Assembly: GCA_030679995.1 (NCBI GenBank)
Contig: JAUXSK010000007.1
Coordinates: 1-41,635, forward strand
Direction of reading: 5' to 3'
From: Candidatus Moraniibacteriota bacterium
GTDB lineage: Bacteria > Patescibacteriota > Minisyncoccia > Moranbacterales > UBA2206
DNA: 41,635 bases
The notes beneath the pieces were generated by a model. The model did not search any database. It worked only from the letters and a program-made list of their open reading frames with translations, and was not told where the DNA came from. A program made the position numbers and the translations under genes. Within the stretch, counting starts at the first letter, position 1, and the number at the start of each line of letters is the position of its first letter. Below are positions 2,256 to 33,003 of the stretch, piece after piece.

Positions 2256-2290
2256 GTCAGGGCGATCCATATATGGATCGCCCTTATTTT
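2256..2290. terminator. Hairpin terminator
   Basis: agggcgatccatatatggatcgcccttatttt. Confidence 0.75.
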
Positions 2291-19023: not shown

Positions 19024-21000
19024 CTAAATCTCTGATGCAGCGTGTTCTTTTAATAAATTTTGCAATCTATTAGCTGCCACCTTATTGAACTCCATTTCGT
19101 TTTCTAAATATTTCCGTATTTCATCGTCTGTTGGATCCAATACTCCGCCCATCATATTTGGCAATAATTTTTTCAAGATTATTATGAAACTTTTTTCATT
19201 TCGTAGTAACACCTTGCGCAATCTTTCATTTCTTTTATTATAATAATTAACCTGCGCATCAATATCATCCTTGTTTTTAACAATAAGCTCCGTGCTATCC
19301 TCAATTCTTTTCAAGACATTGGTCCAGTTTTTAATATTTTCAATCTGTAGTAGCCCTACGATTTTTCCATTATCAAAACCGAGCAATTCAAGTTCATTTA
19401 TAACAACAACTGCCCTCATTAATATCTCATGATATCTAACTCTGAGGGATTCTTGTAATTTTTGTAATTCTTGCATTAATATTTGGCTCCAATCATCTTC
19501 GCCTTCATAAAATTTTGCCTTATTCTTAAGATCCTCTTCGCTACTAAAATAATCATATTCTCCGTTTTTTTCAATCAAGCCTTGATAGATCAACAAAGAA
19601 TCCTTTCCACTCTTATAGTAGGCAAGCATTTCATCTTTTCCCTTATCAAGTGCCCTATTGAAATCCATCTGCATCTCTCTATTTATCATATTTGAAATTT
19701 CTTCAGGACGTATTTCGCATTCTGCTAATGCTTTTTGCACTAGATTATTTATTTCATGTTTATATTCATGTACAACCGTTTCCCTGATCTCATTATCCTC
19801 ACGTAAAATATTCTTATTAATTATGATTATTCCTGTTATGTCATTTCCATCTTCATCAATAGTTTCTATTCCGACGTGTTGCCCCCAAATCTCGTCGGAT
19901 TTATTTATTTCTTCATCTGTTATTTCCTGATTACTACCGAAGAAGATGCGCGCGCAATCAGTCTTGTCATACAGATAAAAAATTAAAGTTAAAGGATATT
20001 TTTCAACTTCAATTTTTCCCACCATCAAGTGACCTGATATTTTTTCAAAAAGTTCTTTTGCAGATAAGTGTTTGTTTGCTTCCCAATGTGTATTGATTAC
20101 ATTAATTTTTTCTTCAAATTTATTAAAGACCATCTCATATCTTTCCATTTGCCATGGACTTAATTTCCATTTTTTTGCTTCTTCTTGAAAATATATCTTT
20201 AATTTCGCAATATCAATCCTCTCGATATCTGAAATATATTGCTCAAGATATGCATTTATTTCTCCAATACCCAGCATTTGGCTTCGCAAATTTTCCTTAT
20301 AACCCTTAATACTATTTTTCTTTTCCTCTGCTGAATTTGATAGTTTCGAAATATTCAACAACTCATCTTGCGGATCAAAAATACTATCTGCTTCTTTTAA
20401 TTTATTTATAGAATCTCGCGCTTGTTTTAACTTATGCATATGATCTTTTTCTAATTTTATACCATCATGTTTATTAGGTTCATCAATAGTATCTCTCTCA
20501 ATTATCCTACTTCTTAGCATGGTTGAAATATCAAAATCATTATCATCTTCAAACTCATCATCCTCGATCAGATCAATGTTTTGATCATCATGATTTTGTT
20601 CAAATTCATCTTCACCATCTTCAACCTCCTCGTCGTAATCATCATCTACCCCATTCTTTGCATCAAGAATTTCTTCAAATGTATCCAACAAACTATCATT
20701 ATCTGGAATAACTATCTGTCCATTATTTTTTTCCAATTGATCAATTAAAATATCTAATATTTTTATTTTCTCCACCTCAAAACTCACACGCTTTGCTTTT
20801 ATTTTTTTAATATCCATTTGACCAAAATATTTTGGCATACTGTGTGGTTCCTTACTCAATTCTTCAAGTGAATCCTCAATATAAATAAGGTTCCTAATTA
20901 AATAGAAATTCTTATTTACAAATTCATACAAATGATCATGATCACTAGGTGTGCGCTCTCTTTCTATTTCAATAATTTCGCTCTTTTTTTCCATATCCAT
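19024..21000 (-). CDS. Large acidic protein with HEXXH motif, putative zincin-like metallopeptidase
   Basis: About 658 aa; RETVVHEYKHEINNL contains HEYKH; strongly acidic DDDYDEEVEDGEDEFEQNHDDQ region. Track start 21033; ATG at 21000 also plausible. Confidence 0.7.
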   Translation of the reverse strand: MDMEKKSEIIEIERERTPSDHDHLYEFVNKNFYLIRNLIYIEDSLEELSKEPHSMPKYFGQMDIKKIKAKRVSFEVEKIKILDILIDQLEKNNGQIVIPDNDSLLDTFEEILDAKNGVDDDYDEEVEDGEDEFEQNHDDQNIDLIEDDEFEDDNDFDISTMLRSRIIERDTIDEPNKHDGIKLEKDHMHKLKQARDSINKLKEADSIFDPQDELLNISKLSNSAEEKKNSIKGYKENLRSQMLGIGEINAYLEQYISDIERIDIAKLKIYFQEEAKKWKLSPWQMERYEMVFNKFEEKINVINTHWEANKHLSAKELFEKISGHLMVGKIEVEKYPLTLIFYLYDKTDCARIFFGSNQEITDEEINKSDEIWGQHVGIETIDEDGNDITGIIIINKNILREDNEIRETVVHEYKHEINNLVQKALAECEIRPEEISNMINREMQMDFNRALDKGKDEMLAYYKSGKDSLLIYQGLIEKNGEYDYFSSEEDLKNKAKFYEGEDDWSQILMQELQKLQESLRVRYHEILMRAVVVINELELLGFDNGKIVGLLQIENIKNWTNVLKRIEDSTELIVKNKDDIDAQVNYYNKRNERLRKVLLRNEKSFIIILKKLLPNMMGGVLDPTDDEIRKYLENEMEFNKVAANRLQNLLKEHAASEI

Positions 21001-21131
21001 GCTTATAAGTTTTATAAAATAAGTATACCACACTACATCACTATTCCAAGTAACAAAAAACGACTTTAGATCAAAAAATCATAACCAAAAAAAGGCTCTT
21101 TTGAGCCTCTTTTTGCGTATATTATTCACTG

Positions 21132-21202
21132 CACGGGTGGAGAGAATCGAACTCCCGCCAAGGGTTTTGGAGACCCTCGTTCTGCCACTAAACTACACCC
21201 GC
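21132..21202 (-). tRNA. tRNA-Trp (CCA)
   Basis: GCGGGTGTAGTTTAGTGGCAGAACGAGGGTCTCCAAAACCCTTGGCGGGAGTTCGATTCTCTCCACCCGTG; loop CTCCAAA, anticodon CCA, G73. Confidence 0.95.
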
Positions 21203-21209
21203 AAATATT

Positions 21210-21461
21210 TTATTTTAAATCCAATCTCTTCATCAATGACATATACACCGATCCACTATCTTTTAAACCTTTTTCTCTCTTGAGCGCTAAATATTTATCA
21301 TCATAAGCCTCATAATAAATCAATATTGGATTTCTATTTTTAGTTGAACGAGTATTACCACTTCCATGTCCAATCATTCTTCTTTTTAAGTCACTTGTAT
21401 ATCCAATATAAAACTCCTTTCCACCAATACAATCTAAACTTAAAACATATACATAATACAT
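21210..21461 (-). CDS. GIY-YIG endonuclease-domain protein (83 aa)
   Basis: MYYVYVLSL...KEFYIGYTSDLKRRMIGHGSGNTRSTKNRNPILIYYEAY. Confidence 0.92.
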   Translation of the reverse strand: MYYVYVLSLDCIGGKEFYIGYTSDLKRRMIGHGSGNTRSTKNRNPILIYYEAYDDKYLALKREKGLKDSGSVYMSLMKRLDLK

Positions 21462-21465
21462 TGAA

Positions 21466-21533
21466 GTTTTGGAGACACCTGTCAGTCGCGACTGACAGGT
21501 GAGACCCTCGTTCTGCCACTAAACTACACCCGC
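21466..21533 (-). pseudogene. 5' half-copy of tRNA-Trp interrupted by a 24-bp palindrome
   Basis: gttttggagac [acctgtcagtcgcgactgacaggt] gagaccctcgttctgccactaaactacacccgc; removing the insert gives the intact tRNA sequence 21164-21202. Confidence 0.92.
21477..21500. repeat. Perfect 24-bp palindrome flanked by gagac direct repeats
   Basis: ACCTGTCAGTCG/CGACTGACAGGT; gagac at 21472-21476 and 21501-21505. Confidence 0.9.
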
Positions 21534-21678
21534 AAAATTAAAATCCTAAATTCTAAAATCCAAATCCCAAACAATATCAAAATTCAAATTTCCTAAATCC
21601 AAATATTTTTAAAGAATTTGGGCTTTGGTTATTTGGATTTGTTTAGAAAATAGATATTAGAAATTAGGATTTCCAATG

Positions 21679-32966: not shown

Positions 32967-33003
32967 ATAAAAAACTCCGGTTAACCGGAGTTTTTTGTTT
33001 TTC
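32967..33003. terminator. Bidirectional terminator
   Basis: aaaaaactccggttaaccggagttttttgttttt. Confidence 0.88.

Follow-up and report, generated by a model that had tools for sequence, protein, structure and literature searches.

The tRNA-Trp gene of a Candidatus Moraniibacteriota bacterium is preceded by a broken copy of itself that is interrupted by a 24-nucleotide hairpin. On balance, we favor as the probable reading of this locus a GIY-YIG homing cassette that occupies tRNA-Trp and contains a mobile hairpin, with the hairpin disabling the tRNA copy displaced by the cassette. The observations behind this reading are a family of related hairpins, target duplications at their ends, covariation between their arms, empty sites in relatives, and a position that is conserved among the broken tRNA copies accompanying GIY-YIG genes. 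The features discussed lie as follows in the window, that is, the whole stretch of 41,635 nucleotides that was analysed.

21131..21202, minus strand: intact tRNA-Trp (CCA), the restored copy (ARAGORN).
21203..21533, minus strand: proposed cassette insertion of about 331 bp, reaching from the beginning of the broken copy to that of the intact tRNA (from empty loci in relatives).
21210..21461, minus strand: 83-amino acid GIY-YIG nuclease ORF of the cassette (Pfam PF01541, E value 1.8e-11).
21466..21533, minus strand: displaced, truncated tRNA-Trp copy, made of nucleotides 1-33 (21533-21501), the palindrome, and nucleotides 29-39 (21476-21466).
21472..21476, no strand: gagac, one side of a 5-bp direct repeat that is single in the intact tRNA.
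21477..21500, no strand: perfect 24-bp palindrome ACCTGTCAGTCGCGACTGACAGGT, the hairpin element (read from the sequence; its skeleton family occurs in relatives).
21501..21505, no strand: gagac, the other side of the direct repeat (read from the sequence).

The first-pass annotation had described a perfect 24-bp palindrome flanked by gagac inside a half-tRNA, and its coordinates and letters are correct to the base. The two parts of the broken copy, one to each side of the palindrome, match the intact tRNA-Trp at 100% identity. Deletion of the palindrome and one gagac does restore the tRNA, as had been claimed, giving GCGGGTGTAGTTTAGTGGCAGAACGAGGGTCTCCAAAAC, which matches the first 39 nucleotides of the intact tRNA-Trp, with divergence beyond that point. 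If the terminal C...G is counted, the palindrome extends to 26 bp, and the 5-bp repeat then overlaps its outermost base pair. A chance palindrome is ruled out, as the expectation is 0.003 perfect 24-bp palindromes for a window of this size and composition and 0 near-matches to the element within it. No second copy with up to three mismatches was found in the window (0 expected) or anywhere in the 0.99-Mb genome. Two further perfect 24-bp palindromes of unrelated sequence lie in the window (2260-2283 and 32971-32994); set against an expectation of 0.003, the three indicate structured sequence in the window rather than rare accidents. An intrinsic terminator was rejected for the window copy because no T run directly follows the hairpin; the minus strand continues gtctccaaaac and the plus strand gagaccctcg.

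Between the broken and the intact tRNA-Trp lies the 83-amino acid GIY-YIG ORF. Its dN values of 0.17-0.28, with dS above 1.1, relative to the homologs in genomes G050, G110 and G113 indicate that it is under purifying selection. In most family members examined (for example, G006 and L251), rpmG is followed by tRNA-Trp with neither a remnant nor a GIY-YIG gene between them. The locus thus has the character of a homing element, in that the insertion splits its target gene and hosts lacking the insertion keep that gene uninterrupted. Adjoining the broken tRNA copy is an AT-rich inverted repeat of about 135 bp (window 21536-21675), and similar sequence occurs at several other sites in the same genome and in many relatives. 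A 669-amino acid ORF without a Pfam match (window 19024-21033, minus strand) lies next to tRNA-Trp.

A search of the anticodon region revealed palindromes at the identical tRNA-Trp nucleotide in six genomes belonging to four families, amounting to seven copies (one each in G000, G084, G075, G110 and G113, and two in G050), every one of them in a broken tRNA beside a GIY-YIG gene. The sequence GTCTC is exactly duplicated in four of the seven, and the second repeat is altered in three. In the window, G050 and G084, the order is 5' part, hairpin, short continuation, GIY-YIG gene and, at some distance, the intact tRNA; in G084, another broken copy and another GIY-YIG gene intervene before the intact tRNA. 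In G075 the GIY-YIG gene comes first and the hairpin follows the ORF, and in G110 and G113 the arrangement is reversed, with intact tRNA, GIY-YIG gene, hairpin, then the 3' part. In a second class of tRNA-Trp remnant, a 24-nucleotide hairpin built on the same general skeleton separates CCAA from CGATTC. Pairing persists across 19 hairpins at tRNA-Trp remnants, with changes on both sides. Downstream (3') of the intact tRNA-Trp in L049, two consecutive 3' tRNA-Trp remnants, each with a hairpin between CCAA and CGATTC, look as if they had been left by earlier invasions.

These observations speak against the first-pass view that insertion of the palindrome followed the tRNA duplication, if this is taken to mean a late event private to this genome: it occupies the same nucleotide in six genomes of four families, which excludes a private random insertion, and next to GIY-YIG genes broken tRNA copies as a rule have a hairpin where they are broken. 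The shared site and this rule together imply that the hairpin travels with, or is inherited with, a GIY-YIG/tRNA module.

Hairpins with the skeleton ACCNGTCNNTCNNGANNGACNGGT occur in 23 of 131 genomes of the order, with up to 17 copies per genome, and a reversed-pattern control over the same order gave no matches. Beyond the order, the skeleton was detected in one of about 346 genomes of a class-wide sample. The exact window palindrome had no match in a collection of genome contigs. In viral contigs, 10 stretches resembled it loosely; most lacked complementary arms, and they were attributed to chance. The count across relatives thus divides the alternative that the first-pass annotation had set against mobility, a unique palindrome formed by local inverted duplication: the window palindrome is indeed unique in its own genome, but relatives carry its family.

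Family members have a common geometry of 24 nucleotides, with a stem of 11 and a loop of 2. The free positions of the skeleton form Watson-Crick pairs in 64/69 and 68/69 copies, compared with 37 and 27 expected, and, judging from these counts, the arms of the hairpin covary. At pair 4/21, T.G or C.A predominates, so that perfect symmetry, as seen in the window, is not required. The motif NGTC is part of the paired stem, and ACC and GGT, at the two ends, pair with each other. Dispersed copies reside in intergenic DNA and in tolerant places within genes, some with T runs 3' of the hairpin; no hairpin was seen inside an intact tRNA.

Direct repeats of at least 3 bp flank 28 of 61 non-redundant copies, whereas 5.1 would be expected under re-pairing of the flanks, and none of 5,000 permutations reached the observed level. 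The duplications vary in length from 3 to 5 bp. Exactly 27 bp, corresponding to the 24-bp hairpin plus a 3-bp repeat, are absent from the miaB, leuS and mutM orthologs in sister species, and holA shows a net 27-bp difference between sister species; the MPG-type glycosylase gene and dusB gave no clean empty sites in such comparisons. In miaB (L031), leuS (L080), mutM (L074) and the MPG-type glycosylase gene (L072), the repeat is a whole codon, GAA or AAA, so the frame is kept and nine residues are added. Translational bypass of these in-frame copies, which lie between identical flanking codons, was considered; with the frame kept, plain translation suffices.

Dispersed relatives, flanking repeats above chance, and exact empty sites in sister species bear out the earlier proposal of a tiny non-autonomous mobile palindrome, as well as its expectation that other copies would carry short duplications, here of 3-5 bp rather than uniformly 5 bp. 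The encoding transposase that it envisaged was not found, either by a Y1 search of palindrome-rich genomes or among genes shared in the flanks. The Y1 family PF01797 (IS200/IS605-type) had no match in the palindrome-rich genomes G081, G069, G096, G105 and G075, matched only weakly in G047, and is present in G085; none of the Y1 loci examined contained a skeleton palindrome. No gene family is common to the flanks of the copies, apart from the tRNA/GIY-YIG loci and orthologous neighborhoods. The genome richest in palindromes, G081, has no close match to the window's GIY-YIG protein, so that this nuclease is not needed for the spread of the dispersed palindromes.

The association of hairpins with broken tRNAs extends well beyond tRNA-Trp. 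Within 160 bp downstream of 40 of 89 GIY-YIG loci of the order, there is an intact tRNA on the same strand; the isotypes are Trp, Glu, Ser, Tyr, Gln, Asn, Cys, Ala, Leu and Gly. The 89 loci were picked by similarity to the window's ORF, a choice that biases the sample relative to GIY-YIG genes as a whole. For the 31 non-redundant 5' tRNA remnants near GIY-YIG genes, a hairpin with a stem of at least 7 coincides with the break in 23, versus 3.8% of random positions. In most of the other eight, inspection by eye, without a control, showed hairpins, single or double, whose stems are shorter or imperfect; an example in tRNA-Glu is GGTTTT/TCAGCCAAAGGCTGA CCACCC..GGGTGG/CATCC. The breaks fall in D, anticodon or T arms, and the hairpins in remnants of other tRNAs differ in sequence from that of the window. 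Identity between remnant and intact tRNA is 100% in most cases, suggesting either a recent duplication or gene conversion. At L192, L198, L208, L222, L238, L249 and other loci, a 35-nucleotide 5' tRNA-Glu remnant that ends in a double hairpin in the anticodon loop is followed by a GIY-YIG gene and then by the intact tRNA-Glu, and similar layouts are found at tRNA-Ser, Tyr, Gln, Asn and Leu.

If hairpins inserted anywhere, and within tRNA genes only hits in dispensable broken copies survived, the link to GIY-YIG genes would be indirect. Dispersed copies in intergenic DNA and tolerant gene positions, and the lack of any seen in an intact tRNA, agree with such neutral landing; the same tRNA-Trp nucleotide in four families, however, and the exact coincidence of hairpin and break in most 5' remnants, across many isotypes, are not what random landing would produce, and we regard this explanation as improbable. 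Equally improbable, in our estimation, is that a staggered GIY-YIG cut in a tRNA loop traps hairpin DNA during repair, the 5-bp repeat being a filled-in overhang and the hairpin a scar. This would account for short repeats at the insertion point and for hairpins that are unrelated in sequence among different tRNA remnants and all fall in loops or arms, but G081 has dispersed copies with target duplications despite lacking a close GIY-YIG match, and a mere scar would not keep its arms paired through two-sided changes as those at the tRNA-Trp site do. A role in RNA, with the hairpin masking the start site of the GIY-YIG gene or terminating its transcription, fits the predicted stable RNA hairpin, its position immediately before the ORF in the window, G050 and G033, and the T runs after some dispersed copies, but is very improbable given hairpins after the ORF in G075, G110 and G113, a window copy lacking the T run, and dispersed copies inside coding genes.

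In the homing-cassette reading, members of the hairpin family insert with a 3-5 bp target duplication, and the window copy belongs to a cassette of about 331 bp that lies between a displaced 5' tRNA copy, broken by the hairpin in the anticodon loop, and the intact tRNA-Trp. The predicted nuclease would cut tRNA-Trp genes that lack the hairpin, repair would copy the cassette into the cut gene, and the cassette's own 5' tRNA segment would rebuild the tRNA downstream. The upstream copy, displaced and hairpin-broken, would then provide no tRNA function and permit no renewed cutting. Here we infer the target of the nuclease, its homing, the protective role of the hairpin, and whatever mobilizes the hairpin. 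Because the intact tRNA keeps the presumed cut region, the model requires that the upstream flank be recognized; an enzyme reading that flank together with the 5' part would recut the displaced copy unless the hairpin spoiled the site, which could explain why a hairpin is nearly always present. The reversed order in G110 and G113 is not predicted by a simple self-protection model. The palindrome richness of G081 and the differing hairpin sequences in remnants of other tRNAs likewise weigh against the reading.

Hairpin-broken tRNA copies beside enzyme genes point to a genetic parasite of tRNA genes that is very small and so far undescribed. More tentatively, they could represent a class of tRNA-invading cassettes of about 300 bp, each a bare GIY-YIG gene with an immunizing hairpin, that spans many isotypes within one order and whose hairpins would count as some of the smallest target-duplicating mobile elements of bacteria. 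If the reading is true, disabling of the displaced copy by the hairpin would render the cassette immune to its own enzyme. The genomes of the order contain many short GIY-YIG genes, and many of these adjoin intact tRNA genes together with hairpin-broken copies of the same tRNA, an arrangement that offers a testable model for their function and for the invasion of an essential gene that is not lost in the process. The 24-bp element is in itself an unusually clean mobile palindrome, with empty sites, target duplications and in-frame insertions in important genes, and bears on what moves palindromes without a transposase.

A limited literature search turned up no earlier account of tRNA copies broken by hairpins in company with GIY-YIG genes. 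SegB, a free-standing GIY-YIG homing endonuclease of T-even phages, cuts in tRNA genes and promotes their duplication (PMC13096335). As in our loci, its gene lies beside tRNA genes; unlike them, SegB is phage-borne, and the portion of that account considered here describes no hairpin-broken tRNA copies, while the protein in the window has only 83 amino acids. GIY-YIG genes are also found in CPR hosts within rRNA-gene insertions that resemble neither intron class (PMC11270868), but there the target is rRNA rather than tRNA, and the main text contains neither 'tRNA' nor 'hairpin'. REPs, comprising GTAG and CGTC super-families and including some Rickettsia palindromic elements, are likewise short, dispersed palindromic repeats, some within genes, and their CGTC types have no known transposase (PMC3733652). 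Unlike REPs, the present hairpins have paired ends with no unpaired GTAG or CGTC tag and no CCA tail, short target duplications, few copies per genome, and a recurrent site in tRNA remnants. A GTAG REP mobilized by a RAYT was rejected, as the flanks of 74 copies contain no GTAG tag and a Y1 transposase is absent from most palindrome-rich genomes; so was a CGTC REP, which would have an unpaired terminal CGTC and a CCA-like tail where here NGTC lies within the stem and ACC and GGT are paired. The target-site duplications, short and variable in length, are shared with MITEs and other DNA-transposon derivatives, and the in-frame insertions in miaB, leuS, mutM and the MPG-type glycosylase gene with Rickettsia palindromic elements. 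The latter are around 100-150 bp long, unlike the 24 bp seen here. Further parallels are the GC clusters of yeast mitochondria, for which help by the endonucleases of mobile introns has been proposed (PMC4478555), the repetitive hairpin-forming elements of sponge mitochondria (PMC2800124), and fungal double-hairpin elements: all are mobile hairpins of tiny size that are flanked by short repeats, have constrained stems, occur sporadically and encode no enzyme themselves. The hairpins described here differ from these in their sequences, in residing on a bacterial chromosome, and in their fixed association with tRNA remnants and GIY-YIG genes.
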